DNA of 36,700 nt from Ignavibacteriae bacterium HGW-Ignavibacteriae-2 (GTDB lineage: Bacteria; Bacteroidota; Ignavibacteria; Ignavibacteriales; Melioribacteraceae), in assembly GCA_002839805.1 (NCBI GenBank), contig PGYT01000049.1, positions 1 through 36,700 of the forward strand, written 5' to 3'. The first letter of the stretch is position 1. Each line of letters begins with the position of its first letter. The notes under the pieces are model-generated. The model was given only the letters and a program-made list of their open reading frames with translations, was not told the DNA's origin and ran no database searches. Below are positions 2,247 through 30,331 of this stretch, piece by piece. A program made the position numbers and the translations under genes.

Positions 2247-4265
2247 ATGAGAAAAAATAAAATAAGTGTTATGAAGCTGCTACTCTTTGGCTTTCTCTTA
2301 TTGGGTTTTACGAGCTTAAACGCGCAGGTTGCTGTAAGCATGCCGACGGTTAACGCTCAGATGGGAGCCACTGGTTCCTTTAGTTTAACCTCAGGAGATT
2401 TGACAAGTCAGGGTGCATATTCATTTGAATTTACTTTAACATATGACAAAAGTATTGTAAAAATTACTGGAGTTGAAAAAGGAACTATTCCTACAAATAC
2501 TCCTGTGTTTACAGATTTAACGACGGCCAATACAAATGGCAGTCTAAAAGTGGTTTATGCTGCGGCTACTCCACTTGCAGGCACTGGATCATTAATTAAA
2601 TTTAATTACGAAATTCTTGCTGTTGGTACTTCACCTTTAGCATTAACAGGTTTTAAGTTTAATAACGGTACACCAGCTGCTACACCAACAAACGGCAGTG
2701 TAATAGTTCCCGCGATATCCATAACAATTGGAGACGCAACTGGTTTTGTTGGCGATACTTTGATGATACCTGTTTCTACATCTAACTTAACAGGTTATTC
2801 AATTTATTCATTTAATTTTAACTATGGTTTCGATAAAACTAAATTAGAAGTATTAGGACATTCACAAGTTGGAACTCTTTCAGCTGGTAATGAAGCTCTT
2901 TCTAATCCTAATAACACTGCTGGAACTGGAGCACTTGCTTATGCTGCAGGTTCTACATTACCAGCTCAGGCTGGTGTTTTAGTTTATATTAAAGCAAAAG
3001 TTATCGGTGCCGGTACTTCTAGCTTCACGGTATCTAACTTTAAGTATAATAACGGTACTCCAGCAGCTGGTGTAATTAACGTTGGTGTTATAACAACAGC
3101 TATTATTCCTAATTTCAAAGTTGAAGGTACTGTTAAATATAGAAATTCTTCATTAACTCCTTTATCAAATGTTGTTGTTAATAAAGACGGTGTTCTTGCT
3201 GCAACTACAGCTGCTCCTGGTACTTATTCTGTTACAGGTTTGTTGGCTGGTACTTATACATTCAGTTTCAGCAAAACAGGCGCTTGGGGCGGAGTTTTAG
3301 CTTCAGATGCTTTAAAAGCCGCTCTTTATTATGTTGACCCAGTTGCTAATCCTTTGGATGCTGTTCAAGTTATGGCTGCTGACGTTAATGATGACGGCGT
3401 GGTTTTAATGAGCGACGCTCAGATGATATTAAATAGAGTAGTTGGTAAAATTTCCGCTTTTACAAAAGCTGATTGGGTATTAAGCCCAAGCAGCAAAACT
3501 CTTACATTAAGTGCCAACGAGGTAATTGATGTATTAGCTTTAGCTACAGGCGATGTTAACGGAAGTTATTCTCCTTCTTTAGCAAAAGAAACTGTTGCAT
3601 ATACAGTTGATGAAGTTATTAATGTTAAGAAAAGTTCAGTTTTCGAATTCCCAATTAAAGTTAAAAACGCGTCTGAAATTGGCGCTTTTACTTTAAGATT
3701 ATCATATCCTATGGATAAAGTTGAATTTGTTTCAGCTAGCAGTTCTGTATCAGTAATTTCAAGCACAGAAAAAGGTATTGTTACTTTAGCCTGGGCTGAT
3801 CTTTCTACAAAAAACAGTATGAAAGTTGCTGAAAACGGCGCTTTAGTTGTTCTTAAATTCAGAACTTCGGAAGCATTGAATATTTCTGATATTATAGAAG
3901 TTAAATTAGAATCTGGTTCTGAATTGGTTGATAGATTAGGTAAAGATTTATCTGCCGGTTTATCATTAAGCAGAATTGCTAATTCTGTTCCAGAAAGTTT
4001 TGAGTTAGGTCAAAACTATCCAAACCCATTTAATCCATCTACAACTATTTCATATGCAATTCCGCAAGATGGAAAAGTTAATGTAGTTGTTTATAATGCT
4101 ATTGGACAAATTGTTGCTACTTTAGTAAATCAAGTACAAGAAGCTGGTAGTTATAAGTATGAATGGAATGCCGGACAATTAACGAGTGGAATTTATTTCT
4201 ACAGAATTTCTGTTGAAGGCGCAAAGAATTTTGTTCAGACAAAGAAAATGCTCTTACTAAAGTAA
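2247..4265 (+). CDS. Secreted three-cohesin, dockerin-like protein with T9SS sorting domain
   Basis: The 672-residue protein starts with a signal peptide (residues 1-27, ending LNAQ). GAGG at 2237-2240 lies a few bases upstream of the ATG and supports this start. Cohesin-like domains lie at about 28-152 and 153-288; they share the string NNGTPAA, pointing to internal duplication. A carboxypeptidase-regulatory-like beta domain follows (about 289-350). Next comes a dockerin-like stretch (about 350-445) with one good calcium loop (DVNDDGVVLMSD) and a degenerate partner (GDVNGSYSPS). A third cohesin-like domain (about 450-578) and a T9SS type A domain (about 581-672, NYPNPFNPSTTI, end KKMLLLK) complete it. 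It is probably a surface scaffold or adhesin, with cohesin and dockerin in one chain. No enzyme domain was recognised. Domain names rest on sequence pattern and fold features, not a profile search. Confidence 0.85.
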   Translation: MRKNKISVMKLLLFGFLLLGFTSLNAQVAVSMPTVNAQMGATGSFSLTSGDLTSQGAYSFEFTLTYDKSIVKITGVEKGTIPTNTPVFTDLTTANTNGSLKVVYAAATPLAGTGSLIKFNYEILAVGTSPLALTGFKFNNGTPAATPTNGSVIVPAISITIGDATGFVGDTLMIPVSTSNLTGYSIYSFNFNYGFDKTKLEVLGHSQVGTLSAGNEALSNPNNTAGTGALAYAAGSTLPAQAGVLVYIKAKVIGAGTSSFTVSNFKYNNGTPAAGVINVGVITTAIIPNFKVEGTVKYRNSSLTPLSNVVVNKDGVLAATTAAPGTYSVTGLLAGTYTFSFSKTGAWGGVLASDALKAALYYVDPVANPLDAVQVMAADVNDDGVVLMSDAQMILNRVVGKISAFTKADWVLSPSSKTLTLSANEVIDVLALATGDVNGSYSPSLAKETVAYTVDEVINVKKSSVFEFPIKVKNASEIGAFTLRLSYPMDKVEFVSASSSVSVISSTEKGIVTLAWADLSTKNSMKVAENGALVVLKFRTSEALNISDIIEVKLESGSELVDRLGKDLSAGLSLSRIANSVPESFELGQNYPNPFNPSTTISYAIPQDGKVNVVVYNAIGQIVATLVNQVQEAGSYKYEWNAGQLTSGIYFYRISVEGAKNFVQTKKMLLLK

Positions 4266-4363: not shown

Positions 4364-7300
4364 ATGAAAAAATACATTTTCTCTGTTATTGCTGCTATTT
4401 TCATCTTCACTTGTGCAACGTACGCTCAAACCACTGTATCTATATCTGAAGTAAAATCCTTTGAGAATATGGATGTTCTTGTTCCTATTACTTCCGATAA
4501 ACCGTTGTCTGGCATTGGCTCATTAACTTTTAAGATACAATATGATGAATCGGTGCTCGACTTTAACGATGAAATTATCAATAATGCATTAAGTGGCGAA
4601 GGCACATTCTTGATCGACCATAATAACGGAGAAATTTCGATTGGTTGGTTCAGCGCAGTCCCTGTCAGCATAACTGATACTATTATGGTACTGAAGTTTG
4701 GGTACAAATCCGGCACTAGTGATTTAAGTCTTCTTCAAAAGGAGATTACAGACAAAGATGGAGTGCAGCTTCCTAATTTAAGTTTTGTAGATGGTAAAGT
4801 TAAGCCATACGATATAGAGTTTAAACTTGGAACAGTTGTTTCTACAATTGGCGATACTGTTTCCGTTTCTTTATCCGCGGTTAATCTCCAGAATATCGGA
4901 GCTATGACTTTATACGTAAATTATGATAACACGAAAGTTGACTTTATAGGTTTAGGTAACGACGTAGTTGGTTTTACAGCGAACGCAAATAATAATACTG
5001 TTACACTGGGATGGTTTGATGCTGTTAATCCCCTTAGTGTTAATATGGGTCAGTTAACAGATCTAAAGTTTGTAATTAAAGGCGGACTATCAAATCTAAC
5101 ATTTGGCGCTTCATCTGAAGTAGTGAACTTAGCGGGTACTGTGCTAAGTCCTATTTACACAAGCGGTCTTGTTAGTGATTTAAATAGTCAACCTGCAGTT
5201 TTATCTATTTCTAACGTACGATGGACAGCTGGACAAAAAGTAGCTGTTAGTGTTATTGGAAAAGGAATTAATAATTTAGGTTCCGCAACATTAAAAATAA
5301 CTTATAATCCCGCGGTATTACAATTTGATAATTATGATAATCTCGCGTCCGGTCAACTTACAGCTAATTCGGCGGCAGGGGTATTAACTCTTGGTTACTT
5401 TAACACAGCCGGTTTAACTGTAGGCGATGGTAAAATTGTTGATTTAGTTTTTGATTACGTTAACGGAAATTCCGCAATTGTTTGGGATAAAGTTTTCGGG
5501 GAAATTACAAAAGTTGATGGAAGTCCATTAACAGTTGCTTTATCCGACGGCTCAATATCTCCTAACGCTTTGCCTAATTTAGTTTTAGTTAGTTCAGTTA
5601 GTGTTAACGAAGGATCATTATTGACCATTGGCGTAAAAGCCACTGATGCTAATAATGACGTTTTAACATATTCAGCTACTGGTTTACCCTCAGGCGCTGT
5701 ATTTGTTAACGACACATTAAAATGGACTCCAACTTTTGCTCAGGCAAATGTTTATACAGTTAAATTTACTGCAGCTGATAACTATGGCGGTATTGACAGC
5801 GCAAATGTAGTTATTACTGTAAACGACATAAACGTTGTTCCTCAATTTGTTAATGTATTACAAGATACAACAATAAATGAAGGGCAGTCTCTTGAATTCC
5901 AATATACAGGATCCGATTTTGATAATGATACATTAAAATTTGCTTTAGTAGGCGGTCCAACGGGCGCTATGATGAGCGAAAGTGGATTATTTAAATGGAC
6001 TCCTGATTTCGATCAAGCCGGCGTTTATGATTTAATAGTAGCATCGTTAACTGACAAAGCTGTTTCAGTTTATGATACCGCTAAAATTACTGTTACTAAT
6101 GTAAACAGAGTTCCTGGTTTTGTAAAAGTTCTGCCTGATACTTTAGTTAAAGGTGGTACGACTCTGGCGTTTACTTACACTGCAACCGATCCTGATAATG
6201 ACGCGGTTATTTTCGCGAAAGTATCTGGTCCTGATGATTTAACTGTAAGTGCTGCTGGTGTATTAAGCTGGGTTATCCCTATTTCTACAAGCGGTGTTTA
6301 CACCGTTGTAACATCGGTTAGTGACGGTGTTGCCACTGTATTAGATACAGCGGTTGTTACAGTTCAGATAGGTGCTTATGAAGTTACTATTAAACAGATT
6401 CAGCAGCCTACTGACACAACGGACGTTTCACCTTATAATGGTAAGATTGTTAAAACAACCGGTATTGTAACTGCTATTGATTCAGTTGCGAGCGGCGGAA
6501 TGGGTTATTATATACAGGATGGCGCTGGCGCATGGAACGGTATATTTGTTTTTACAAATAAAGTAAAACCTACCGTTAAACAAGGCGATAAAGTTACTGT
6601 TACTACTTTAGTAAAAGAGTATTTTAATTTTACTGAGCTTGATTACAGCACTCAGCCTCTTGGACTTGTTATAGTAAGTTCTAAAAATGTTTTACCGGCT
6701 GTTACTAAAATTAAAACCGGTGACGACAAAGAACCTTACGAAGGCGTATTAGTTAAATATTCCTTAGCCGAAGTAACTAATAGCGATATTGGTTTTGGCG
6801 AATGGGAAATTAACGATGGTTCCGGAGTTGCAGTAGCTGACGATCAGATGTTTGTTTATAAACCTGTTCTTGGTGAAAAATTAGAAATAACCGGTGTTAT
6901 CAATTATACTTTTGGTCTTTACGCTATTGAACCTCGATTTGCAAAAGACATTACAGCTTCTCCTGAAGAATTGATTACATGGTTTGATTTGGAAGCCGGA
7001 TCAGCAAAATATTTTAACGCTACTGATGTAAATACACGTGGTATGGCTTATAATCCTACCACTGGACACGTACTTGTAGCTTCAAGAACCGGTGTTCCTA
7101 GAATATATGTATTGGATGGAATTACAGGCGCTTATCTTGATACTTTAGACGCAACAGGTCTCGCAGATCATGGTCAGTATAAAGTTAATCAGGTTGTAGT
7201 TGCCGATGACGGCGCAATTTATTCCTGCGCTATGGTTGCCTTCAGTTTTGCCGCCAATGAATTCAGAGTTCACAGATGGGCAGATGAAGACGCTGTACCT

Positions 7301-9079
7301 ACAATAGCTTATACTGCTGTTGGAACTACTAGAAACGGCGACGTACTGTCAGTTTCAGGCAGCGGTGTTAATACAATACTTTATTCAAGCGGTTCAGGAT
7401 CACTTGAATTAAGGAAATATACTACAACAGATGGTATAACATTCAATTTAGCTAATACAATAACACTCGCCGCTGCATATGCGGGCGGTGGTATTTCTCC
7501 GGTTTCATCATCGGCTAATGCGAATCTATGGGTAACAAGCGGCGGTCAATCAGTTAGATTGATTGATCAGACCGGCGCGGTGCTGGCAACTATTGACGGT
7601 ACAATGATACCTACTTATTTCTGGGATGTTGATTATGTGAAATTGGCGAACGGTAAAGAATTATTAGCTGTTGCCGGTGGTAACTCTAATCCTGGAAGTA
7701 TGGATATGCAGGTTTGGGATGTAACTAATTTGAACAACCCAACTCAAGTATATTATGCGGTTAAAGGCGGTACATTTAACACTAACGCAAACGCTACTGG
7801 TGTTGCGGATATCGTTGAATTGGCCGATAACCAATTTAGAGTATATCATTTACTAACAAACAACGGTTTGGCTTTATACGCTAACTACGAAGCTCCTACT
7901 TACGATATGGAATTAGCGTCATTGGATCATAAAGGCGGCGATTTAACCGTTACTATGTTCAACGATGGTAATATTGGATATCACGATTCCGGTATTGGTA
8001 AAGGAATTGAGTGGAAAGGTGTTAACGGTTTGTGGAAAGGTTCAATTGTTTATGGAAGAACTTCAGCAAAATATGCTGTTGGTGACGCTCATAACGCAGT
8101 TGGATTTAATGATATAGTGAATGTTGAAAGTTATTTCAATAAAGGATTTACAACCTGGGGTGAATTTGATCAGGTTACTTATCCTGTATTATTGAGTGAC
8201 GCAGATGCAGCAAAACCATATGGAATTCCTGTAATTCAACAGTCATTCTCAAAAACTGATGAAAATGCCGTATTTATAAAATATTCATTTGTAAATAACA
8301 CTGCTTCGGCTATCACCGATCTTTATGCGGGTATGTTCCTCGATATTGATGTTGGTGCTGGTAGTGCTTACAAAACAAATATTGGCGGCTATTCAGCGGC
8401 TGAGAAATTAGCTTACGAATATCATGACGCAAACAACGCTTATTATGGCGCGGTTGCTATTACTGATGGTGCCTGGGGCGCTAGAGTTACTGCTTCGTCT
8501 TTGGATGATTTAGATAAATTCCGTGAAGCGGCTCTTACTTATATTTCTGAATTACCAGCAACATTTGATGATTCTCCAGCCGGCGATCAAAGAACATGGA
8601 TCGGTTCACCGGTTAGAAACAGTAACGGTTCAACCAGCATTGCTGTTGGTGATACAGGTTACGTTGTTTTCGCTCTTGTTGCAGGAGATAATAAGAATAA
8701 TATAAGATTAAACGCAGATATGGCTTTCCGAAGAGCTGCAAAAACTCCAGGTTGGTCTACATTTGTTACCGATGTAAATGAAAATATAAATGTTCCTTCT
8801 GAATTTACATTATCACAGAACTATCCTAATCCGTTCAATCCTTCAACTACTATTAAGTTCGGATTACCTTCTGCTAGTCAGGTTAAAGTTAGAGTATTCA
8901 ACATACTTGGCGAAACAGTTGATGTTCTTGTTAATCAGGATATGTCCGCAGGGTTCCATTCTATAAATTGGAACGCGACAAATCTTTCTTCTGGAATTTA
9001 CTTCTATTCAATAGAAGCAAAATCTAATGAAGGTGGTAAAAGCTTTAGCATAACCAAAAAAATGATGCTGCTTAAGTAA
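4364..9079 (+). CDS. Large secreted multidomain cohesin/Ig-like/beta-propeller-like protein with T9SS sorting domain
   Basis: This 1571-residue protein has a signal peptide (1-22, ending TYAQ) and a ribosome-binding site (AGGA just upstream). Three cohesin-like domains come first (about 23-146, 147-275, 276-400). Three Ig/cadherin-like repeats follow (about 403-492, 492-582, 583-670), each with the D-x-D/N calcium-type signature and WTP-type strands. An OB-fold-like region (about 671-864, YNGKIVKTTGIVTAIDS) resembles the DUF5689-type segments of Bacteroidota surface proteins. Then come a DUF4623/propeller-like region (about 865-1176), an unassigned beta-rich region (about 1179-1470) and the T9SS domain (about 1475-1571, NYPNPFNPSTTIKF, end KKMMLLK). 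No catalytic motif was found. A cell-surface or matrix role is inferred. The OB and propeller assignments are tentative. Confidence 0.85.
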   Translation: MKKYIFSVIAAIFIFTCATYAQTTVSISEVKSFENMDVLVPITSDKPLSGIGSLTFKIQYDESVLDFNDEIINNALSGEGTFLIDHNNGEISIGWFSAVPVSITDTIMVLKFGYKSGTSDLSLLQKEITDKDGVQLPNLSFVDGKVKPYDIEFKLGTVVSTIGDTVSVSLSAVNLQNIGAMTLYVNYDNTKVDFIGLGNDVVGFTANANNNTVTLGWFDAVNPLSVNMGQLTDLKFVIKGGLSNLTFGASSEVVNLAGTVLSPIYTSGLVSDLNSQPAVLSISNVRWTAGQKVAVSVIGKGINNLGSATLKITYNPAVLQFDNYDNLASGQLTANSAAGVLTLGYFNTAGLTVGDGKIVDLVFDYVNGNSAIVWDKVFGEITKVDGSPLTVALSDGSISPNALPNLVLVSSVSVNEGSLLTIGVKATDANNDVLTYSATGLPSGAVFVNDTLKWTPTFAQANVYTVKFTAADNYGGIDSANVVITVNDINVVPQFVNVLQDTTINEGQSLEFQYTGSDFDNDTLKFALVGGPTGAMMSESGLFKWTPDFDQAGVYDLIVASLTDKAVSVYDTAKITVTNVNRVPGFVKVLPDTLVKGGTTLAFTYTATDPDNDAVIFAKVSGPDDLTVSAAGVLSWVIPISTSGVYTVVTSVSDGVATVLDTAVVTVQIGAYEVTIKQIQQPTDTTDVSPYNGKIVKTTGIVTAIDSVASGGMGYYIQDGAGAWNGIFVFTNKVKPTVKQGDKVTVTTLVKEYFNFTELDYSTQPLGLVIVSSKNVLPAVTKIKTGDDKEPYEGVLVKYSLAEVTNSDIGFGEWEINDGSGVAVADDQMFVYKPVLGEKLEITGVINYTFGLYAIEPRFAKDITASPEELITWFDLEAGSAKYFNATDVNTRGMAYNPTTGHVLVASRTGVPRIYVLDGITGAYLDTLDATGLADHGQYKVNQVVVADDGAIYSCAMVAFSFAANEFRVHRWADEDAVPTIAYTAVGTTRNGDVLSVSGSGVNTILYSSGSGSLELRKYTTTDGITFNLANTITLAAAYAGGGISPVSSSANANLWVTSGGQSVRLIDQTGAVLATIDGTMIPTYFWDVDYVKLANGKELLAVAGGNSNPGSMDMQVWDVTNLNNPTQVYYAVKGGTFNTNANATGVADIVELADNQFRVYHLLTNNGLALYANYEAPTYDMELASLDHKGGDLTVTMFNDGNIGYHDSGIGKGIEWKGVNGLWKGSIVYGRTSAKYAVGDAHNAVGFNDIVNVESYFNKGFTTWGEFDQVTYPVLLSDADAAKPYGIPVIQQSFSKTDENAVFIKYSFVNNTASAITDLYAGMFLDIDVGAGSAYKTNIGGYSAAEKLAYEYHDANNAYYGAVAITDGAWGARVTASSLDDLDKFREAALTYISELPATFDDSPAGDQRTWIGSPVRNSNGSTSIAVGDTGYVVFALVAGDNKNNIRLNADMAFRRAAKTPGWSTFVTDVNENINVPSEFTLSQNYPNPFNPSTTIKFGLPSASQVKVRVFNILGETVDVLVNQDMSAGFHSINWNATNLSSGIYFYSIEAKSNEGGKSFSITKKMMLLK

Positions 9080-9364: not shown

Positions 9365-10516
9365 ATGCGCAAACTGCTTTTACTTATAATAATATTTACC
9401 AACTCTGCTTTCGGGCAGGTTAGTGTTAATCTTTCCGATTTAACCGTGCTAGATTATAATCCTAATATAATTTCTGTATCCATCACAAATCTTAATACAG
9501 ATAATATAAGAGCAATCGATTGTATGTTATACTACGATACAGATTTGTTGAAGTCCATTGCAGTCGAGAGAAATGAAAACTCTGTTATAAAAGGCAGAGG
9601 ATTTTTTATAAGTAAAATAGATACGATAAATGGATTTATAGATATAGCATGGGCAGATGCGATTCCAATTGAGAGAATAGGTAATTTATTCAACATTTAT
9701 TTTACTGCAAAAAAACCAGGAAATACGAAAATAACATCCAAAGACCCTTTAACAAGGAAAGAGATGTTCATTTTTAATAATGGGAATCCATCCGCAATTG
9801 TTGATAACGCTGAAATAGAAATTAAAACACCATATGTAAAATTTGTAAATTATAATTTTATTGGCAATCAGGTTGAACTGGAACTTAGATTTATAAATAT
9901 GTTAAATGTCGGGTCTTTTTCGTTCAGGATATTTCATGATCAATCGAATGTTACAATGACAGGTATAGATAACATATATAAAAACATAAGCCTTATTTCG
10001 AATAGTAATAACGGAGTTATAAATCTTGGATGGTACGACGCAACAGCTTTTAATCCGTTAAATATTATTGACGGAAAAATATGTACTATCAAGTTTATTG
10101 TTAACAATTTGTCAGGAAGTTTAAGATTCGATTCAATATCTGAAGCAACAAACGATTTGGGAAAGAAACTTCCTTTGAAATTTGAGAGCTTTAATTTCTC
10201 TTCAGTAACCGATGTGAATAAAGATTATCTTTTACGCGATTACGAATTGCGTCAAAATTATCCCAATCCATTTAATCCTCTTACGACAATAAAATATAGT
10301 ACACCAAATAAGGGAAACGTAAAAGTGTCAGTTTTTAATCTTATTGGTGAAGAAATAGAAATTTTAATGAATGAAGAATTGCCGGCGGGGGAGCATACGA
10401 TACAATGGAACGCCGCTAACTTATCATCCGGAGTTTATTTCTATTCAATTAAAGCGGAATCTTCGCTTGGCAAAACTAAATATTCTGCAATAAAAAAAAT
10501 GTTGTTGTTGAAATAA
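9365..10516 (+). CDS. Secreted two-cohesin protein with T9SS sorting domain
   Basis: The 383-residue protein is a short paralogue of the three upstream genes. It has a signal peptide (1-18, MRKLLLL...AFGQ), two cohesin-like domains (about 19-150 and 155-270) and a T9SS type A domain (about 285-383, NYPNPFNPLTTIKY, end KKMLLLK). The string NNGVINLGWYDA in the second domain mirrors NNTVTLGWFDA in the 4364-9079 protein, which supports common descent. No dockerin loop or Ig repeat is present. There is no clear Shine-Dalgarno sequence; an ATG at 9357 is out of frame and stops after 10 codons. It is probably exported to the surface and could serve as a minimal binding module. Codon use is less biased than in the first gene, suggesting lower expression. 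Confidence 0.85.
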   Translation: MRKLLLLIIIFTNSAFGQVSVNLSDLTVLDYNPNIISVSITNLNTDNIRAIDCMLYYDTDLLKSIAVERNENSVIKGRGFFISKIDTINGFIDIAWADAIPIERIGNLFNIYFTAKKPGNTKITSKDPLTRKEMFIFNNGNPSAIVDNAEIEIKTPYVKFVNYNFIGNQVELELRFINMLNVGSFSFRIFHDQSNVTMTGIDNIYKNISLISNSNNGVINLGWYDATAFNPLNIIDGKICTIKFIVNNLSGSLRFDSISEATNDLGKKLPLKFESFNFSSVTDVNKDYLLRDYELRQNYPNPFNPLTTIKYSTPNKGNVKVSVFNLIGEEIEILMNEELPAGEHTIQWNAANLSSGVYFYSIKAESSLGKTKYSAIKKMLLLK

Positions 10517-10998: not shown

Positions 10999-11931
10999 AT
11001 GAACATTCGAGTAACAAACCTCACAAAAAAATACGGTACACAAAGGGCAGTAGATAATATTTCATTCGAGGTTAAAACGGGTGAAATTCTTGGTTTTTTA
11101 GGTCCAAACGGTGCCGGTAAAACAACTACAATGAAAATCCTTACCTGTTACATGGCGCCTTCCGATGGCACTGTAATGGTTGGGGACTATTCAATTCATG
11201 AAAATGCAGACGAGATAAAACGAAACATCGGGTATTTGCCCGAAAATAATCCGTTGTACCATGATATGCTTATGCTGGAGTACTTAGAATTTGTGGCCAA
11301 ACTTCATGGTGTTCCTAAAGAAAAAATTCCTAACAGAATAGCTGAAATGGTTGCTGTTTGTGGTTTAAATGTGGAGAAACATAAATCAATCGGTGAGTTA
11401 TCAAAAGGATACAGACAAAGAGTGGGTCTCGCCCAGGCGCTAATACACGATCCACAAATTCTGATATTGGATGAACCTACTACAGGTTTGGATCCCAATC
11501 AGATTGTTGAAATAAGAAAACTTATTAGAGAAATAGGGAAGGAAAAAACTGTAATTCTAAGCACTCATATTCTTCCTGAAGTTGAAGCTACTTGCGACAG
11601 AATACTTATTATAAACAACGGCAAAATTGTAGCTGACGGAACTTCAGAAATTCTACGTAAACAGGCCCAGGGACAGGAAATGTTAAAAATAGAGATTACC
11701 GACGCCGCCGATAAAGGAGAAGTTATTGAAGCGCTTCAGTCGTTGGAGACAGTAGCTATGGTTGATCCTTTTGAAGAAAATGATAAGGCTTTTATTATAA
11801 ACAGTAAACTGGATATGTCATCTAAACGAAACATTTTTAATCTATGTGTGGAGAAAAAATGGTTGCTTAGTGAAATGACTCCAATTGAAACAAAATTAGA
11901 AGATGTTTTTAGAGAATTAACAACAAACTGA
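10999..11931 (+). CDS. gldA: ABC transporter ATP-binding protein, GldA type
   Basis: The 310-residue protein is an ABC ATPase that would power the inner-membrane GldF permease. Visible motifs are Walker A GPNGAGKTT (35-43), a Q-loop region with LPENNPLY (80-87), where E82 stands in the glutamine region as in GldA-like ATPases, signature LSKGYRQR (134-141), Walker B ILILDEP (154-160), D-loop GLDP (163-166) and the switch histidine H190. A C-terminal extension of about 90 residues is typical of the ABC-2/GldA subgroup. In gliding Bacteroidota GldA, GldF and GldG form one transporter required for motility in some species; in non-gliders the role is unclear. It is first in an apparent operon, ending 6 bases before gldF. 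AGGA lies upstream of the ATG at a longish spacing. Confidence 0.9.
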   Translation: MNIRVTNLTKKYGTQRAVDNISFEVKTGEILGFLGPNGAGKTTTMKILTCYMAPSDGTVMVGDYSIHENADEIKRNIGYLPENNPLYHDMLMLEYLEFVAKLHGVPKEKIPNRIAEMVAVCGLNVEKHKSIGELSKGYRQRVGLAQALIHDPQILILDEPTTGLDPNQIVEIRKLIREIGKEKTVILSTHILPEVEATCDRILIINNGKIVADGTSEILRKQAQGQEMLKIEITDAADKGEVIEALQSLETVAMVDPFEENDKAFIINSKLDMSSKRNIFNLCVEKKWLLSEMTPIETKLEDVFRELTTN

Positions 11932-11937: not shown

Positions 11938-12476
11938 ATGAAAGAGATTATAATTATAGCGCATAAAGAATTAAAAACATTTTTCGATTCTTTGATTGCT
12001 TACATACTGATAACAATATTTTTGGGTATCAGCGGATTTTTTACATGGTTGTTCGGCTCGGATATATTTATGATCGGACAAGCTACATTACAGCCTTTCT
12101 TTTCTATAGCGTATTGGACTTTGTTCTTTTTTATCCCCGCGCTTACAATGAAAATGTTGTCGGAGGAACGTAGAAGCGGCACAATGGAGTTGTTATTGAC
12201 AAAACCAGTTACGGACTGGCAGGTTATTTTAGGAAAGTTTTTGGCTTGTGTGGAACTTATCTCGGAGTGTTTTTTATAATAATATTCGATGTATTGGCGA
12301 ACAGTTTTTTAGGATCGTTCGGACAATTTTTAAGCTTTTTAAGTATATCAACACATTACGAATCAATTTCGCGCGGTGTGATAGATTCGCGCGATATAAT
12401 TTATTTTGTATCAATTTCTTATTTGGGGTTATTCCTCGCAGAAACTGTACTTTCAAAAAGAAACCTTGTTGAATAG
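11938..12476 (+). pseudogene. gldF: gldF permease, broken by internal deletion(s) and a frameshift
   Basis: The N-terminal part (11938 to about 12247) is a good GldF/ABC-2 permease start, with two membrane segments and the conserved SGTMELLLTKPVTDWQVILG stretch. That frame ends at 12279 after an unrelated tail. The C-terminal part continues in another frame from about 12249 to the stop at 12476, with FDVLANSF and YESISRGVIDSRDIIYF. GldF proteins are usually about 240 residues; here about 180 remain, so some 60 residues (the middle membrane segments) are missing. The remnant GTYLG normally sits between the missing segments, which suggests two deletions on either side of it. A functional permease cannot be made from this DNA as written. 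The cause is either true decay or an assembly/sequencing error, because gldA and gldG look intact. Confidence 0.8.
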
Positions 12477-12486: not shown

Positions 12487-14013
12487 ATGCTCACAAAAAG
12501 AAAAGTTCAAACAGCAGTAATATTAATAATCGGTATCATCATTTTAGTAAATGTACTTGGCGATAAGTTGTTTTTCAGGCTCGATTTCACTGCCGATCAA
12601 AGATACAGCTTAAGTAAAGCTACTACTGATGTTTTGGAAGAGTTATCGGAACCTGTAACGGTAACCGCATATTTCTCGGAAAATCTTCCGCCAGATGTAG
12701 CGCGAGTAACGACAGATTTTAAGGATTTATTAAAAGAATACGCTAGCAGGTCGAACGGACAAATCGTTTATGAATTTATAAATCCCAACGCCGATGAAGA
12801 AACTGAAATGAAAGCGCAGCAAAACGGGATTCGTCCTATTATGATAAACGTCAGGGAACGGGATCAGGTTAAACAGCAGCGGGCGTATCTCGGAGCAATA
12901 ATTCAGCTTGGCGAAAAGAAAGAAGTGATACCTTTCATTCAGCCCGGTTCTGCTATGGAATACGCTCTATCGACCAACATTAAAAAATTATCGCTGAAAG
13001 AAAAACATAAAGTAGCTTTTTTGCAAGGGCATGGCGAACCTTCGCTTGGAGCATTTCAGCAATTAAATATGTCGTTAAGCGTAATGTATGATGTTGATAC
13101 CGTTACTGTTAATCCTTCGAGAGGAATACCCACTGAAATAAATACATTGGTTATTGTAGCGCCGAAAGATACAATTCCCGATTTTGTTTATACGCACTTA
13201 AACGATTTTATTAATAGAAAAGGAAAACTCTTGATTGCTCTTAACAGAGTTGAGGGTAACCTTAGTAACGGAAGCGGTGAAAAAGTTGATACAGGTCTGG
13301 AAAATTGGCTTAAAACAAAAGGTGTTGAAGTTGAGGCAAATTTTCTTATTGATATAAATTGCAGTAATGTTATGGTTCGTCAGCAGGAAGGATATTTTGT
13401 TATGAATACTCCCGTCAGCTTTCCATACATACCAATAATATCTAACTTTGCAGATCACCCTATCACAAAAGGATTGGAATCTGTTGTTTTGCCGTTTGCG
13501 AGTCCCATTAAAATTATTCCAACGGACACCTCTTTAATTTATATTCCAATAGCACTTAGTTCGGAAAAAACAGGTATTAATAATCCCCCACTTAGGTTTG
13601 ATATAACTAAACAATGGACCCCGAGTGACTTTAATCTTTCTTCAGTACCTGTGGCTGTAGCTGTTGAAGGCAAAAATGCCCAATCAACACTTAATAGAAT
13701 GGTCGTGTTTAGTGACGGAGATTTTTCAGTTAACGGGGAAGGACAACAAGGACAGCAGCTGCAGCCGGATAACGTTAACCTGATGGTGAATTCGATCGAC
13801 TGGCTTTCGGATGACACAGGCCTTATTGAGCTACGAACAAAAGAAGTTACATCTCGTCCTTTCGATTCTCAGTTGGACGATGGAACCAAAACGTTAGTAA
13901 AGTATCTGAACTTTTTATTGCCCATTATTCTAATAGTTATTTACGGTGTATTTCGTTTTCAAACAAAAAGAAACCTTCGTAACAAATTAAAGTCAATAGA
14001 TTATGTCAAATAG
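12487..14013 (+). CDS. gldG: Gliding-type ABC transporter auxiliary protein GldG
   Basis: I chose the ATG at 12487, 10 bases after the gldF stop, giving 508 residues. A longer frame from 12406 would overlap gldF coding sequence. A membrane anchor lies near the N terminus (about 10-28, AVILIIGIIILVNVLGD), followed by the conserved FRLDFTADQRYSLS motif at its outer face. A large periplasmic domain of the ABC auxiliary (PF09822-like) family follows, including HKVAFLQGHGEPSL. A second membrane segment sits at the C terminus (FLLPIILIVIYGVF). GldG is thought to pair with GldF and GldA. It overlaps the next gene by 11 bases, which indicates co-transcription and translational coupling. Confidence 0.88.
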   Translation: MLTKRKVQTAVILIIGIIILVNVLGDKLFFRLDFTADQRYSLSKATTDVLEELSEPVTVTAYFSENLPPDVARVTTDFKDLLKEYASRSNGQIVYEFINPNADEETEMKAQQNGIRPIMINVRERDQVKQQRAYLGAIIQLGEKKEVIPFIQPGSAMEYALSTNIKKLSLKEKHKVAFLQGHGEPSLGAFQQLNMSLSVMYDVDTVTVNPSRGIPTEINTLVIVAPKDTIPDFVYTHLNDFINRKGKLLIALNRVEGNLSNGSGEKVDTGLENWLKTKGVEVEANFLIDINCSNVMVRQQEGYFVMNTPVSFPYIPIISNFADHPITKGLESVVLPFASPIKIIPTDTSLIYIPIALSSEKTGINNPPLRFDITKQWTPSDFNLSSVPVAVAVEGKNAQSTLNRMVVFSDGDFSVNGEGQQGQQLQPDNVNLMVNSIDWLSDDTGLIELRTKEVTSRPFDSQLDDGTKTLVKYLNFLLPIILIVIYGVFRFQTKRNLRNKLKSIDYVK

Positions 14014-14941
14014 ATTATCAAATAAAAAACTTGCAATAATATTTATAGTTTTATCGGTTGCTGTAGCCCTGATTTATTTTAGCGAAGGAGCGGGCGAAAG
14101 ATCATTCAGAACTGAATTGGTGGATATAGATACATCGTCGGTTTCAGAAATATTGATTAATCCCAGGGGTGCTGAAGAAGACAAAATAAAACTGACCAAG
14201 GAAGGAGAAAATTGGAAAATATTATTGCCGAGTGGAGAACAGGTAAATTCTCCGAAATCTAAAATTGATAATTTATTTAAAACTATAGTTAATATAAAAC
14301 CTAATAGATTAGCCGCCCGCGGTCAAGAAAAATGGCAGGAATTTGAGGTCGATTCCGCAGCTACGAGAGTAAGAGTTTTTGAGAGTGGAAAAGTAACCCT
14401 GGACTTGATGATTGGCAGGTTCGCTTTCCAACAGCCCAGAACAATGAATACATATGTTAGATTATATAATGATAACGACGTTTACGAAGTTGAAGGATTT
14501 CTTTCAGCAATATTTAATCAAAGTGTAAACAATTATAGAAACACCGAAATAATAAAAAGTGACGAAGAACTTTGGAGCAATTTGAATTTCAGTTATCCTG
14601 CGGATTCGTCGTATGTTTTAACGCAGTTGAACGGAAAATGGTTCGCGGCGGATGAACTTACGGATTCCAGCGCCGCAGTAAATTATTTGCGATCAATTTC
14701 ACGATTATCTAATTCAAATTTCGTCGATAAGTTCGATAAATCAATTTTGAATTCGCCTGAATATAAACTTACAATTCAAATGCACGATTCCAATAAGATT
14801 ACTGTTACCGGTTTCGTTAAGGATTCTTTGCTGCTTATTAATTCTTCTGAAAATCCCGAAAGCTATTTTGATGGAAACAAAGATGGTCTTGCGAAGAAAA
14901 TATTTATAGGAATGAAGAATCTTGTAAATAATCATCATTAA
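14003..14941 (+). CDS. DUF4340-family membrane-anchored protein of the gldAFG operon
   Basis: The 312-residue protein has one N-terminal membrane segment (about 9-25, LAIIFIVLSVAVALIYF). The rest is a presumably periplasmic region of the DUF4340 type, with repeated beta/alpha units, KLTKEGENWKILLP and a later GRFAF. Proteins of this family are often encoded directly after ABC auxiliary genes like gldG, and the 11-base overlap here fits that. Function is unknown; a stabilising or accessory role for the transporter is inferred. It converges with the gene at 14965 with only 23 bases between them. Confidence 0.75.
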   Translation: MSNRLSNKKLAIIFIVLSVAVALIYFSEGAGERSFRTELVDIDTSSVSEILINPRGAEEDKIKLTKEGENWKILLPSGEQVNSPKSKIDNLFKTIVNIKPNRLAARGQEKWQEFEVDSAATRVRVFESGKVTLDLMIGRFAFQQPRTMNTYVRLYNDNDVYEVEGFLSAIFNQSVNNYRNTEIIKSDEELWSNLNFSYPADSSYVLTQLNGKWFAADELTDSSAAVNYLRSISRLSNSNFVDKFDKSILNSPEYKLTIQMHDSNKITVTGFVKDSLLLINSSENPESYFDGNKDGLAKKIFIGMKNLVNNHH

Positions 14942-14964: not shown

Positions 14965-17082
14965 TTATAAATTGAAAAGTTTATTCTTTTTCAGCATCTC
15001 AAATAATTTTTCGGATGTTGTAACGGGTAAACCGCATTCATAATCGCGGCATACGTAAACAGTAAATTTATTTTCAACTGTTTTATAAGATTTTAAGTAC
15101 CCTGCGGTCTCTAGCATTGGATTGTTTGTTAAGTCCTCATTTACAAAAATGGTAATACAGTTTGGTATAAATGTTTTATTAATATCATTTATTAAACTGT
15201 TAAATTTATCATCCTCTTTATTACCGACAAAAATAATTTCTGTTGAAGGTCCAAAATCGAAGTCCAACGCATTTAAAAACATTGTTGATCCCGGAAGTGA
15301 TTCTTTAACTCTGGAAGAAAAGGCTTTATTCAGTTTTTTAGAATACTCATTAAAATGGTTTTCAGCCGTAATTTTTGCGAGTCGTATTAAATTCAGGTAT
15401 GAAACCGAGTTGCCAGATGGGATAGCTCCGTCATAAACATCCTTGTTGCGCACTATTAATTTTTCACCGTCTTTTGATGAAAAAAAGAAGCCGCCGAGAG
15501 ACTCATCCCAAAATAATTCTATTTGTTTATTCTGCAGTTCAATTGCTTTTAATAAAAAAGAGGATTCAAAAGTGGACTCGTATAATTCGATTAGTCCCCA
15601 AATAAAAAAAGCATAATCGTCCAGGTGAGCTTGTATTTCCGAAGAACCGTTTCGGTATCTGTGTAAAAGTTTGCCGTCGGGTAATTGCAGATTGTCGCAA
15701 ATAAATTTTGTTGCTTTCTGCGCGGCATTGGTATAAACCGGTTTATCGAGAACTCTGCCGGCCTTTGCCAGTGCGGCTATCATTAAACCGTTCCAATCCG
15801 TTAATATTTTATCATCCTTTAACGGATGTATTCTTTTTTTACGAACTTCAAATAATTTATTACGCATTTGGAGCAATTGTTTTTTTAACTCTAATGAATC
15901 AACACCCATTTCGTATGCAGCATTATTCAGATCATTTTTTACGTGTAAAATATTGCTTCCTGTATTACCACCGGTAGCTTCATCGGCAAAATTACCATCC
16001 GCCTCAAGATTGTACATCTTAATGAAAACGTCAGCCGAATCATTGTCAAGTATCGATTTAACTTCATCAATTGACCACACATAAAATTTCCCTTCTTCAC
16101 CCTCGCTATCCGCATCTTCGGCCGAATAAAATCCTCCTTCATCGTTTGTCATATCTCTAAGAATATATTCAAAAATATGTTCCGCGGTTTCAGAGAAAAA
16201 AACATCTCCGGTTACCTGATATGTCTCAATATAGGCGAAGGACAACATTGCCTGATCATAAAGCATCTTTTCGAAGTGGGGTAATAACCATTTCTTATCG
16301 GTGGAATATCTATGAAAACCGTATCCAATATGATCAAAAATACCGCCGTTCCTCATCTCAGTAAGAGTTTTGATCACTATTTTTAATGCTTTCTCTTCTC
16401 CGGTTCTTTTCCAGTACCTTAGAAGAAATAATAAATTGTGCGGTGAAGGAAACTTCGGTGAACTTCCGAATCCTCCGTGTTTAGTGTCGAACCTGTCATC
16501 AAAATATTTAAATGTCTCAGTAAAATCTGATTCGGAAAACTCAACTTCTTCTGTTTCGTAGGATACATACTCAGTTAAAGATGCCGTAAGTTGATCGGCG
16601 CTCGCGAGTATTTCGCTTCGTTTGTTTTTCCATACGGAGTTAACCCTTTCTATTAAATCAATTAGACCAATACGCCCCTGTCTGGATTCCTTAGAAAAAT
16701 ATGTGCCCGCGAAGAATGGTTTTTTATCGGGTGTCATAAATATTGTGAGCGGCCACCCGCCTCGTCCGGTTGTCATTTGGCAAACAGTCATATAAATGCT
16801 GTCTATATCGGGTCTTTCCTCGCGGTCTACTTTTATGGGAATAAAAACTTTGTTCAACAACTCGGCAACAATACTATCCTCAAAAGATTCTTTTTCCATT
16901 ACGTGGCACCAATGGCAAGTAGAATAACCTATCGACAAAAAAATCGGCTTATTTTCGGCAGCGGCTTTTTCGAATGCTTCATCGCACCAGGGGAACCACT
17001 CTACGGGATTATAAGCGTGTTGTAAAAGATAAGGGCTTTTCTCATTTATCAATCTGTTAGTTTTATCGGAGGTTATACTCAT
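14965..17082 (-). CDS. Thioredoxin-fold and (alpha/alpha)6-barrel protein, YyaL/SSP411 family
   Basis: The 705-residue protein matches the usual length of the DUF255/spermatogenesis-associated protein 20 family. The N-terminal thioredoxin-like domain (about 1-170) begins with the family hallmark [18 protein letters not shown]. It carries a CHWC active-site motif (56-59) followed by [10 protein letters not shown] and [12 protein letters not shown]. The remainder (about 190-650) is a helical toroid like those of N-acylglucosamine epimerases and glycosidases, with [14 protein letters not shown] and [11 protein letters not shown]. It is probably cytoplasmic, since no signal peptide is seen. The biochemical role is not established for the family. 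GGGAG just upstream of the ATG supports the start. It follows the SirB1-like gene on the same strand after 82 bases. Confidence 0.9.
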
Positions 17083-19506: not shown

Positions 19507-22500
19507 ATGTCAACCAGCGATAAAAAATTTGAAGTTAAAAGTAACCGGCGGTCGTTAAAAATAGCGTTGCTCTATTTATTCTTTGGTGTTATCTGGATCT
19601 CCGTCAGCGATACTCTTCTGTTCTCAATTGTACAGGACTCCGAGTTATTAAGCCGTTTACAATCATATAAGGGCTGGTTTTTTATTCTTATTACAACAAT
19701 TCTATTATACTACTTCTTAAAACGTGAATTTAACATACTTGCCGATAACCGAATCGCTTTGCAGCAGAGTGAAGATAGATACAGAAAATTAGTTGAAAAT
19801 ATGCCGGAGGTAGTTGGAGTAGAGCAAAATGGTTTGTTAAAATATATTAATCCCGAGGGTTTAAGAATATTTGGATATGATTCATTAAATGAGATTGAGG
19901 GAAAACCTAATGAATTATTTATTCACGAATCATCCATTGAAAAAATAAATTCAATGATTTTTAACGAACCGAATGTAGTTATTGATAAACCAATTGAATT
20001 AAAATGTGTTAGAAAAGACGGAACTGTTTTTCTCGTTGAATCCCAGTACTTTCCTACTGTTTACAAAGGGGCCCACGCTGTTCAATTTATTTTCCGTGAT
20101 ATTACCGAAATAAAAGAAAAAGAGAATGAATTAAAACAAAATCAAATGAAATACTCAACTGTTTTTAATGAATCAAATGACGGTATTGTATTAATTGATT
20201 CTATGGACGGTTCGATTCTTGAGTGTAACAAAGCATTTAAAAATATGCTTGGAAAAGACTATGAACAATTATTATTAATGAAAATATGGGAGATACGTCC
20301 GCAAAACGATCAAGCTGCGGGGAAAAAATATTTTGAAAAAATTGGGGATAATGGATTCGGGAAAATTTCTAATGTAACTATAGAAACTAACTATTCAGCC
20401 ATTCGATATATGGATATAGTTTCTAAAGTATTGTTTTTAGAAAACAAAAAAATAATTTATTCAATTTTAAGGGATGTTACGGATACAAAAACCGCTCAGG
20501 AAGCTCTGATTAAAAGTGAAAAACAATTCAGACAAATTATTGAAACCGCTGGTGAAGGAATATGGATAATTGATAATGAAACCCGAACTACTTTTGTAAA
20601 CAGAAAAATGTGCTTAATGCTGGGATACAGCTGCGGTGAAATATTAGGCGAATCTTTATTTCATTTTATTGATCCTGAATGGAGTAAAAATTCCGAATTA
20701 AATATTGACAAAACAAAAAAACATGTTAGCAAGCAGCATGAAATTAAATTTACGACAAAGAAAGGTGATGAGTTATGGGCATTGTTAAATACTTCTCCTC
20801 TAATTTCCGAAGAGGGAGAGTATATCGGTTTGTTGGCAATGGTCAGCGATATTACAGCTAGGAAATCAATAGAACAGGCATTGCTTCTTTCTGAGTTAAA
20901 ATTCCGCGCGGTTGTGGAGCAATCAATAACAGGAATTTATATCTTCGATGAAAAATATTTTTTATATGTAAATCAGCGATTGTGCGATATTTTCGGATAT
21001 TCATCAAAAGAGTTGTTGTTCCATATGGGCCCGCTTGAATTGATATCTGTAGGAGACAGAGAAACAGTAATTGAGAACATTAAAAAACGAATTGAAGGAA
21101 AAGTACAAAGTCTGCACTATATAGCCAGAGGTTTAAGAAAAGACAACTCTTTTATCTGGGTAGAAATACACGGCAGCAGGATGATTCTTGACGGTAAACC
21201 GGTAATTACAGGCACCTTACTGGATATTACGGAAAGGAAAAAAAATGAAGAAGTTATACTAAACTCGGAAGCGAAATTCCGCGCTGTTGTTGAACAATCT
21301 ATAACCGGCATATATGTATTCGACGAAAACGGTTTCTTATACGCCAACAATCATTTTTGTGAAATGCTTGGTTATTCCGAAGAAGAAGTATTGACGGAGC
21401 TTCAACCGCTCGACATTATAGCCGAGGTTGATAGAGAAATGGTTGAAACCCAAATTCAAGATAGATTTACCGGCAAAACAAAAAGCGCGCATTACATTGT
21501 AAGAGGCGTTCGCAAAGATGGGTCAATCCTGTGGGTTGAGCTGCACAGTAAATTAATACTTTATAACGGTAAACCCGCGATAACGGGTACTGTCTTAAAT
21601 ATAAGCGAAAGAAAAATTGCTGAGCTAGAAAGAGACAAATTAATTGAAGAGTTGTCTATTCTTAAACTAGAAGCTGAAACCTCAAGGGATCAGCTGGCAA
21701 ATGTTTTTGATAGAATGAATGACGGTATTGTAGCACTGGATAAAGACTGGAACTATATTTACGTTAATAATAAAGCCGCTAAATTTCTACAGAGAGAAAA
21801 ACCGGAAGATTTAATCGGTAAACATATTTGGACTGAATATCCGGAAGGAATTGATCAACCATTCTATAAAGCTTATATAAGAGCTATGGAAACTCAGGAA
21901 TCTGCTTATTATGTTGATCATTATCAGCCTTGGGATCGTTGGTTCGAAAATAGGATTTACCCGAGTCCCGAAGGTCTTACAATTTATTTCACGGAAATAT
22001 CTGAACGCAAAAGAGCTGAAGAATTAGCTAAAGAATCCGAACGCCGTTTTAGAGTTATGCTCGAAACTGTTAATCTTGTCTCCGTTATTTTAGATGAAAG
22101 CGGCATGATTACATTCTGTAACGACTATTTTCTTAAACTTACCGGCTATAACCTTGATGAGGTTCTTAATAAAAACTGGTTTAATTTATTTATTCCGGAA
22201 GATATACTGGACGAAATAAAACAAGTTTTTTTTACGAATCTTCCATTTGGGAAGATCCCCTCACACTATGAAAACAGTATTTTGAGTAAAAATGGCGATA
22301 AGATTTTGATCTCATGGACTAATACAATATTGAAGGACATAAACAAAAATATTTTAGGCGTAGCTTCAATTGGAGAGGATATTACGTTACGCAGAAAAAT
22401 TGAAGAGGCACTGCATAATAGCGAAACCAGATTCAGAAGCCTAACAGAAAATTTGCCTGATATGATAGCTCAATTAGATGAGAATAATAGAATCCTTTAT

Positions 22501-24990
22501 GTAAATCCGACAATGATAACAACACTCGGTATTGTTCAGGATAATATAATAGGCAAAACAATTGAACAATTGGATTTGAAGTTTGATGAAATTGAAAATT
22601 GGAATAATATTTTAAGAAATGTTATGGAATCTGGTAAAGAATACCAATTTGAATATAAATTTTTAGTTAATAATGAGGAGCATTTCTTTGAATCGAGGCT
22701 AGTTCCCGAATTAAATGATGAGGGAGATTATGATACAATTCTAATGATCAGCCGTGATATAACATTCCGGAAAAAGGCCGAAGAGGTAATAAAAGAGCGT
22801 GAAAAATTATTATCAGTAATTTATAATAATGTTTCCGATGTGCTCTTCCTTCTCTCGGTTGAACCCGGAGATAAATATAAGTTTATTTCTGTTAATAAAT
22901 TATTTTACGAATCTACTGGTCTTAATCAAAAACAAATAATTGGTAAAGATATTAGGGATGTTATACCCGAAAGCACTCATTCTTTAGTTTTAAAGAATTA
23001 TCGTCAGGCTATAGACACCGGTAAAACAACCACTTGGGAAGAAGTAACTAATTACCCTAGCGGACTTAAATACGGACTGGTTAGCGTAGCCCCAATATTT
23101 AACGAAAATAATATCTGCACAAACCTTGTGGGAACTGTACATGATATAACTGATTTACGTGAAATAGATTTAAAAATAAGGAAAAGTGAACAAAGATTAC
23201 GCATAGCTCTGAAAGAAACAAATATTGGACTTTGGGATTGGGACCTTGATAAAGATGTTTGGTTTGCCACTCCTGTATATTTTACAATGTTGGGTTATGA
23301 ACCTATTAGTGAACTTCAAAAAGGAGAGTTACTCGGCCAATACTTGCATCCTCAGGACCAAGAGCTTGTTATGAATAAATTGTATGAAATTAAATCAAGA
23401 AAATCACGTGGCTTTGATCTCGAGTTTCGCCTGCAGCATTCGGACGGTTCTTACAGGTGGATAAATTGTATAGCTCGGGCGATTGAATCGTTTGATAATG
23501 AACAACTTATAAGGGTTATCGGGCTTCAGATTGATATTACAAACAGGAAAGAAGCCGAAGAAAAATTGGAACAAAGCGAACTTTTACTCAAAGAAATGGG
23601 CAAAATCGCAAAAATTGGCGGATGGGAGTTCGACGTAAAAACTATGGAAGGAACATGGACTGAAGAAGTTGCTCTGATTCACGAAATGGATCCTTCGGAA
23701 GAAACTAATGTTGAGTTGGCGTTAGGTTTTTATGAGCCAAAATCACGTAAAATAATAGAAAGGGCTATTCAGGAAGCGATTGAATTCGGAAAACCCTATG
23801 ACGTAGAGTTACAGATGATTTCAAAAAAGGGAATTGTTAAATGGGTAAGGTCTATCGGCACTCCGGTATTGGAAAATAACAAAACCATTAAGGTTCGTGG
23901 TTCCTTTCAGGATATCACTTTCCGAAAAATTGCCATGGAAGCCATCAAAAGCAGTGAAGAAAAATTGCGTGCGCTTTTTGAATCAGATATTATTGGAACA
24001 GTTACAGCGGATATTTACGGGAATATAGATTCCGCAAATGATGAATTTTTGAGAATAATTGGATACGGAAGAGAGGATTTGATAAATGGCAAATTGAGAT
24101 GGGACAACATTACTCCGGTAGAATGGTTTGAAGCGGATAAAGAAGGAATCGCTGAAGCGCAAGAGAAAGGATCTTGTTCTCCTTATGAAAAGCAGTATAT
24201 CAAAAAAGACGGCTCACTGGTTTGGATATTAATTGGTTTTGTGCTGTTCGGGAAAAATAGGGAAAAGGCAATTGCTTTTGTTTTGGACTTAACTCCAATT
24301 AAAGAAAAGGAGAATGAACTTCAAGAATCGCGTGATCAGTTGCGCAGATTACATAATAGTATTGAAACTTCGCGAGAGGAGGAAAGGTCAGCTATAGCAC
24401 GCGAAATTCACGATGAAATAGGTCAGGTACTGAGCTCACTCAAAATGAATTTTGTTTTGATTTCTAAACAATACTTGGGCGCAAAAACAATCAATAAGAA
24501 AAAACTGGAAACTGAAATTAAATCCATGATGAATATTTTGGACACAACTGTTATACAAATGAGAAAACTGATCTCCACTCTCAGACCCGATGTTCTTGAT
24601 AAATTAGGATTAATTCCTGCTTTGGAGTATCAGTACGATGAATTCAGCAAAACATTCGCTGGAAATTGTTTGTTTAACAACAAAGTCGGTTCAATTAAAC
24701 TTGAGGGTAAAAGTGAGATAACTATTTTCCGAATTTTTCAGGAAGCTTTGACCAATATAAATAAACACGCAGAAGCAAAAAATGTGGTAATTGAATTGAA
24801 AAAAAGCTCAAAAAAATTGGTTCTATCAATTCAGGATGATGGAAAAGGTTTTAATAATAATGAGATGGAATTGAGGAATTCCTTTGGATTGGTCGGTATG
24901 AAAGAGAGGGCACAAATGATTAACAGTAATCTGAAAATTATTTCGAAAAAAGGAGGCGGAAGTAAAATAACATTATCTATCCCTTTTTAA
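19507..24990 (+). CDS. Membrane-anchored multi-PAS sensor histidine kinase, NarL/DesK type
   Basis: The 1827-residue kinase has an N-terminal hairpin of two membrane segments (about 19-38 and 56-73). About twelve PAS domains follow at nearly regular 125-residue spacing, starting near residues 88, 210, 337, 461, 587, 724, 843, 972, 1097, 1227, 1357 and 1482. Most end with a PAC-like DIT(E/x)RK motif. PAS domains 4 and 5 are close copies (both open with KFRAVVEQSITGIY). The transmitter is HisKA_3 type: AREIHDEIGQ with phospho-acceptor H1635, N-box with ALTNINKHA (N1750) and G-box DDGKGF (D1778-F1782). This class usually pairs with NarL/LuxR regulators, and such a regulator starts 56 bases downstream. 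The ligands of the PAS domains are unknown. It has no receiver domain of its own. Confidence 0.93.
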   Translation: MSTSDKKFEVKSNRRSLKIALLYLFFGVIWISVSDTLLFSIVQDSELLSRLQSYKGWFFILITTILLYYFLKREFNILADNRIALQQSEDRYRKLVENMPEVVGVEQNGLLKYINPEGLRIFGYDSLNEIEGKPNELFIHESSIEKINSMIFNEPNVVIDKPIELKCVRKDGTVFLVESQYFPTVYKGAHAVQFIFRDITEIKEKENELKQNQMKYSTVFNESNDGIVLIDSMDGSILECNKAFKNMLGKDYEQLLLMKIWEIRPQNDQAAGKKYFEKIGDNGFGKISNVTIETNYSAIRYMDIVSKVLFLENKKIIYSILRDVTDTKTAQEALIKSEKQFRQIIETAGEGIWIIDNETRTTFVNRKMCLMLGYSCGEILGESLFHFIDPEWSKNSELNIDKTKKHVSKQHEIKFTTKKGDELWALLNTSPLISEEGEYIGLLAMVSDITARKSIEQALLLSELKFRAVVEQSITGIYIFDEKYFLYVNQRLCDIFGYSSKELLFHMGPLELISVGDRETVIENIKKRIEGKVQSLHYIARGLRKDNSFIWVEIHGSRMILDGKPVITGTLLDITERKKNEEVILNSEAKFRAVVEQSITGIYVFDENGFLYANNHFCEMLGYSEEEVLTELQPLDIIAEVDREMVETQIQDRFTGKTKSAHYIVRGVRKDGSILWVELHSKLILYNGKPAITGTVLNISERKIAELERDKLIEELSILKLEAETSRDQLANVFDRMNDGIVALDKDWNYIYVNNKAAKFLQREKPEDLIGKHIWTEYPEGIDQPFYKAYIRAMETQESAYYVDHYQPWDRWFENRIYPSPEGLTIYFTEISERKRAEELAKESERRFRVMLETVNLVSVILDESGMITFCNDYFLKLTGYNLDEVLNKNWFNLFIPEDILDEIKQVFFTNLPFGKIPSHYENSILSKNGDKILISWTNTILKDINKNILGVASIGEDITLRRKIEEALHNSETRFRSLTENLPDMIAQLDENNRILYVNPTMITTLGIVQDNIIGKTIEQLDLKFDEIENWNNILRNVMESGKEYQFEYKFLVNNEEHFFESRLVPELNDEGDYDTILMISRDITFRKKAEEVIKEREKLLSVIYNNVSDVLFLLSVEPGDKYKFISVNKLFYESTGLNQKQIIGKDIRDVIPESTHSLVLKNYRQAIDTGKTTTWEEVTNYPSGLKYGLVSVAPIFNENNICTNLVGTVHDITDLREIDLKIRKSEQRLRIALKETNIGLWDWDLDKDVWFATPVYFTMLGYEPISELQKGELLGQYLHPQDQELVMNKLYEIKSRKSRGFDLEFRLQHSDGSYRWINCIARAIESFDNEQLIRVIGLQIDITNRKEAEEKLEQSELLLKEMGKIAKIGGWEFDVKTMEGTWTEEVALIHEMDPSEETNVELALGFYEPKSRKIIERAIQEAIEFGKPYDVELQMISKKGIVKWVRSIGTPVLENNKTIKVRGSFQDITFRKIAMEAIKSSEEKLRALFESDIIGTVTADIYGNIDSANDEFLRIIGYGREDLINGKLRWDNITPVEWFEADKEGIAEAQEKGSCSPYEKQYIKKDGSLVWILIGFVLFGKNREKAIAFVLDLTPIKEKENELQESRDQLRRLHNSIETSREEERSAIAREIHDEIGQVLSSLKMNFVLISKQYLGAKTINKKKLETEIKSMMNILDTTVIQMRKLISTLRPDVLDKLGLIPALEYQYDEFSKTFAGNCLFNNKVGSIKLEGKSEITIFRIFQEALTNINKHAEAKNVVIELKKSSKKLVLSIQDDGKGFNNNEMELRNSFGLVGMKERAQMINSNLKIISKKGGGSKITLSIPF

Positions 24991-26143: not shown

Positions 26144-26312
26144 TTAAATTTAAGTGTAGAATTAATGCCACAAACTTGGTTGATTTAAAACTACATGTGG
26201 TTCATTCTTACAACTATTCTACCTTAGCTTCAGATCGGTTAAATTACACTAGTACTACACCAATATTTTTATATCTGCTTTTGTTTGTCTTTTGAAAATA
26301 TTAAGAATTAAA

Positions 26313-30260: not shown

Positions 30261-30331
30261 AAGGGATGGACTCAGAGGATTTTAACCAATAGGCCTTCGG
30301 AATATTGAATGCCGGAGAAACAATTAAAACT

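Follow-up and report, generated by a model that had tools for sequence, protein, structure and literature searches.

The closest described counterpart of the locus treated here is GldF (TIGR03518), the permease of the GldA-GldF-GldG ABC transporter of Bacteroidota gliding, and a structural model of a same-genus GldF has the ABC-2-like helical layout that is typical of ABC-2 permeases. According to passages of the two papers concerned, gliding of F. johnsoniae needs GldF, which is called essential (PMC9127263), and GldJ is unstable in F. johnsoniae gldF mutants (PMC9870892). A passage of a further paper names three gliding flavobacteria, Cellulophaga tyrosinoxydans, C. algicola and Maribacter sp. 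HTCC2170, as organisms without gldF and gldG (PMC7440613). The DNA analysed here, called the window below, is a stretch of 36,700 bases (bases 1-36700 of contig C29) from a draft genome of 4.16 Mb in 147 contigs that is listed as 99.92% complete. Its genes stand in the same order, gldA-gldF-gldG, as those of the described transporter, and the gene in the place of gldF lacks 187 bases.

A permease gene read in two frames

Two fragments of the gene match the NCBIfam GldF profile TIGR03518, at profile positions 4-107 and 172-238 of 240, with scores of 114.8 and 52.8 bits, and two intact relatives reach 225.0 and 233.7 bits against a curated cut-off of 288.5. Both fragments and both intact relatives (4/4) match TIGR03518 better than any other NCBIfam profile, all of them under the cut-off, and since the two intact relatives also fall below it, the name gldF is to be taken as a best-match naming. 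The neighbours that a GldF gene should have are found, TIGR03522 and TIGR03521 being the top matches on either side, both under their own cut-offs; for these two profiles the comparison with the cut-off covers the window copies, and for GldF the two intact relatives as well. A continuous frame of some 240 residues is not found in the window gldF, where a stop follows after 113 codons.

The sequence-only reading took gldF to be broken by a frame change, and this is borne out. The frame from 11938 reads as GldF up to ...GKFLACVELI, with the codon of I108 at 12259-12261 and a TAA at 12277-12279, and the remaining GldF, GVFFIIIFDVLANSF to the stop at 12476, sits in a different frame, in which it continues from G172 without further stop or shift to a normal stop codon at 12474-12476. 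The same reading had proposed an alignment with the gldF of relatives, and when this was run, 12 relatives (the 13 relatives' loci minus L008, the start of which is cut off) were found to carry an intact gene of 726 bases, 241 codons in every case, whereas the window gene has 539 and differs by a single gap of 187 bases, a length that shifts the frame. When both sides of the gene were mapped onto the best 80 of 337 GTDB loci, that is, of 337 stretches encoding a relative in GTDB species genomes, the gap was likewise 187 bases in 80/80. In the model of the same-genus GldF (mean pLDDT 83.7) the lost stretch covers helices 116-125 and 130-157 entirely, together with the last part of helix 93-113 and the beginning of helix 161-185, and judged from its reading frames the gene as printed would be unable to encode an intact permease.

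Table 1. The gldA-gldF-gldG region and its features, in coordinates of the window
Feature	Coordinates	Strand	Remarks
gldA-like ABC ATPase, 310 aa, intact	10999..11931	+	TIGR03522, 393.1 bits (cut-off 402.6)
gldF 5' fragment	11938..12279	+	Residues 1-108 (11938-12261) are homologous; 5 foreign codons and TAA follow; TIGR03518 profile 4-107
GTYLG	12252..12266	+	3' frame read back across the junction, out of frame; only the last G is a GldF residue
gldF junction	12261..12262	+	187 bases of relatives absent here: codons 109-170 and the first base of codon 171
gldF 3' fragment	12262..12476	+	Residues 172-241 in full, other frame; TIGR03518 profile 172-238
T TTT TTA heptamer	12270..12276	+	Slippery phase, just before the TAA of the 5' fragment; after a -1 slip reading would continue in the 3' frame
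gldG-like gene, 507 aa, intact	12490..14013	+	TIGR03521, 245.2 bits (cut-off 389.85); PF09822, PF23357
DUF4340 gene, intact	14003..14941	+	PF14238; next after gldG in 7/7 near relatives

Neighbouring genes, relatives and the family

No decay was seen elsewhere in the operon, gldA, gldG and the DUF4340 gene all being full length against near relatives. The gldA-like protein aligns over 306-310 aa with 7/7 near relatives compared, and the gldG-like protein over its whole length, likewise in 7/7. The expectation of the sequence-only reading that gldA and gldG would be orphaned thus holds only on condition that the loss is real, and the two genes themselves are full length and conserved. The 5' fragment is 86-87% and the 3' fragment 81-83% identical to two same-genus GldF, which are 89.8% (5' part) and 81.2% (3' part) identical to each other. 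In the tree of the 5' fragment the window branch, at 0.082, is longer than the same-genus branches of 0.036 and 0.052, and in that of the 3' fragment, at 0.108, it is not longer (same-genus 0.128 and 0.095). Synonymous sites are saturated between the compared gldF, too far for a dN/dS estimate. Taken together, identities, branches and full-length neighbours agree with a loss that is recent or never took place.

Among the best 80 of 337 GTDB loci, a stop is reached 238-242 codons from the aligned start in 79/80 relatives; the remaining one (L049) runs off its contig, and the first codons of another (L025) lie off the contig. Two MAGs with the name Melioribacteraceae are the closest named relatives by GldF among these best 80 of 337 loci, a set that may leave out records of the own genome. 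Neither these loci nor the 79 genomes of the family yielded a second genome of the species, the nearest being the two same-genus genomes. A search of the own genome gave neither a second gldF nor the missing piece in another place, and its other gldF matches are weak (24-33% identity, in open frames of 379-383 residues).

The family search covered 79 genomes, the own one included, with an intact relative as query and a threshold of E <= 1e-20 for gldG. In 33/79 the gldF match is full length, covering 238 or more of the 241 residues without a stop, and strong matches that are not full length occur in G094, as a piece at a contig start, and in the own genome, where the gene is broken. At this threshold gldG is present in exactly the 35/79 genomes with a strong gldF match, the gldG match of G089 covering residues 1-326 only, and the other 44/79 have no gldG and at most weak gldF matches (best E ~2e-8). 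Over the 79 genomes gldF and gldG hence co-occur (35 with gldG) or are absent together (44 without), and the gldF-gldG operon seems to be gained and lost as a whole. The sequence-only reading had held that a relative with the same short gldF would argue against recent decay; no such relative was found among the best 80 of 337 GTDB loci, and the family search gave a partial gldF (residues 117-241) in G091, where it adjoins gldG on contig C45 and a full-length gldF is present on another contig. This partial gene may have been cut by the end of a contig, or it may be broken in its turn. In the other 78 family genomes the search reported no gldF interrupted by stops or by a change of frame, the two partial genes being those of G094, at a contig start, and of G091.

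Elsewhere in the window a gene cluster with cohesin domains and type IX sorting tails is found at 2247-4265, 4364-9079 and 9365-10516, and more weakly at 95-2164. Since the first gene of the cluster has a sorting tail together with a dockerin match under the cut-off, these domain matches make it conceivable that type IX secretion exports a cohesin-dockerin system. The window also encodes two sensor kinases of very large size and rich in PAS domains, at 19507-24990 (10 PAS_9 stretches) and 26292-30260 (5), with a LuxR-type response regulator at 25047-25679 between them. The two kinases that lie within 26292-31078 were considered as a possible second break in the window, and this was rejected, as each of them is a gene of its own and has an ATPase domain.

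Assembly error or mutation

An assembly error, which the sequence-only reading had set beside a true loss as an alternative, comes out as slightly the likelier cause, with about an even chance of being correct, given the mis-sized gaps and the other split genes of the same assembly, and it would take the form of a local mis-join in the draft. Two contig ends would have been joined without the short piece between them, so that 187 bases are missing from gldF, and the living organism would have an ordinary gldA-gldF-gldG transporter. We infer an assembly error rather than a mutation at this place, in part because it is one clean gap, beyond which the 3' fragment keeps its frame, its stop and its 81-83% identity, but also because 79/80 relatives among the best 80 of 337 reach the normal stop, with one leaving its contig, and because gldF and gldG are strictly paired in the family (35/79).

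The draft itself was compared with that of a congener, by means of 60 stretches of the own genome (1,083,704 bases, plus the window) and 80 of the same-genus genome (1,456,443 bases), both samples including the sprA and gldF regions. Short N runs number 8 (3-63 N) in the own sample and 0 in that of the congener, a count that leaves out two long N runs in each genome. In L227 a gene is interrupted by a 3-N gap with ~30 bases missing beside it, in L228 by a 63-N gap that is ~30 too long, and a 32-N gap has an identical 15 bases on either side; on account of these three, the draft contains scaffold gaps, some of them wrongly sized. Furthermore, 5/217 non-redundant comparable genes are split between frames here and 0/216 in the reverse comparison, namely sprA, gldF, a gene in L204 and the two N-interrupted genes of L227 and L228, three of the five being without N. 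With gldF being the finding itself and the sprA contig deliberately chosen, the unbiased count is 3/215 against 0/216, which is a weak excess of split genes; rows that consist of one match with stops inside it, of which there were 3 and 11 in the two directions, do not enter this count. Queries taken from other relatives again gave sprA and gldF as the split ones among 33 own genes, and 0 split among 21 congener genes. In-frame gaps of at least 8 residues show no excess here, with 2 missing and 6 extra relative to the congener against 4 and 2 in the reverse comparison, and this speaks against a general loss of short pieces.

The break in sprA, which we take to be the type IX pore gene, lies in L111 (contig C49) near 15709-15714 and is free of N: after an open frame of 2125 residues, the last 152 residues follow in another frame, and the gene is 11 bases short relative to the congener. 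In 6/8 relatives searched sprA is found in one open frame of 2267-2375 residues, with 1787 in G002 and no match in G064. Either the assembly is at fault here a second time or the secretion system is dead, and the fact that sprA is broken even though 125/128 matches to the type IX sorting tail in the own genome pass the cut-off (150/161 candidates scored) favours the mis-join in gldF as well. A comparison of short frames that end in type IX sorting tails was dropped, since contig ends are not excludable and the congener also has short ones. At 13276-13284 of L204 the homologue of a congener protein of 320 residues is split between frames, apparently by one extra base; its cysteine-rich start resembles, by eye, a radical-SAM protein.

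The mis-join is disfavoured by the complete lack of N at the gldF junction and anywhere in the window, and by the size of the gap, 187 bases exceeding the other assembly errors seen, which range from 1 to ~47 bases. Moreover, no long repeat flanks the missing stretch in relatives, and a collapse at a repeat is not supported, since the longest shared word within 15 bases is only 3-9 nt among the best 80 of 337 loci. That 2/5 split genes were preselected and that in-frame gaps show no excess weighs the mis-join down further and a real loss up.

The notion of a real and recent null mutation, in which a single deletion in gldF would leave GldA and GldG without a permease as the first step of operon loss, comes just short of an even chance. 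A junction without N is in agreement with it, as is the window branch of the 5' fragment tree, which at 0.082 is longer than the 0.036 and 0.052 of its same-genus relatives; the 3' fragment tree does not repeat this. It is also in agreement with this notion that 44/79 family genomes manage without the operon, having no gldG at E <= 1e-20 and weak gldF at most, and that the three gliding flavobacteria are reported, in the passage of PMC7440613 that names them, without GldF and GldG. In addition, short imperfect repeats are present at the equivalent sites of some relatives, of up to 9 nt in the 189-base register and 0-4 nt in the 187-base register. A real deletion is however in poorer agreement with the rest of the operon being free of decay, with the other faults of the same assembly and with the lack of any reported gldF with stops or a frame break in the other 78 family genomes, where G094 has a partial gene at a contig start and G091 another. 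As to other gliding genes, a GldJ model had no match in the own genome, and no control passed the cut-off either; in a GldL search, likewise, no control matched. A real loss would be gene decay of an ordinary kind, with the gldA-gldF-gldG operon caught at a first step of it, in a family where 44/79 genomes lack gldG and a good gldF.

That the printed sequence is real and the gene working is very improbable. The heptamer U UUU UUA is shifty, and a -1 slip on it would fuse the two fragments; the product, of ~179 residues, would be a shortened GldF and a minimal permease with fewer membrane helices; the phase of the heptamer is right for this, and the slip does enter the correct 3' frame. Such sites are however expected by chance, since among 15597 equal-length coding stretches and phases in the window an X XXY YYZ of some kind occurs in 26%, and one of six strong forms in 11%. 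According to the model one helix would be missing entirely from the fusion, together with the end of the long helix before it and the start of the helix after it, and no short form was found among relatives, neither in the best 80 of 337 loci nor in the 79 family genomes. The heptamer derives from two Phe codons of a GVFF stretch, and TTTTTTA is present in the homologous 18 bases of 1/80 relatives (best 80 of 337 loci).

The proposal of the sequence-only reading that two separate deletions left a GTYLG remnant between them can practically be dismissed, for while GTYLG looks like the GYLG-like motif of relatives, it is read in the wrong frame across the junction, and one 187-base gap explains both sides in the 12-relative alignment as well as in 80/80 loci (best 80 of 337). 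The motif of relatives, GYLG, GYFG or GYIG at residues 136-139, falls within the missing 187 bases; GTYLG was probably mistaken for this GYLG-like motif inside the lost piece, the position of which probably also accounts for the two membrane segments that had been thought missing.

Comparison with known systems

Local misassembly and mis-sized scaffold gaps are a familiar kind of fault in draft genomes, and the assembly treated here has both short gaps of the wrong size and frame breaks without N. The gldF junction differs from the mis-sized gaps in having no N, and its error is larger than the others seen. With a local mis-join as the slightly favoured cause, the broken genes of this draft, sprA included, should not be taken as losses of function before the reads have been checked. 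The gliding flavobacteria of PMC7440613 are the other point of comparison, since, as that passage has it, the transporter can be missing from organisms that glide. The likeness is one of outcome, as in those flavobacteria the genes are reported as absent, whereas in the window a single gene of the three has a single internal gap.
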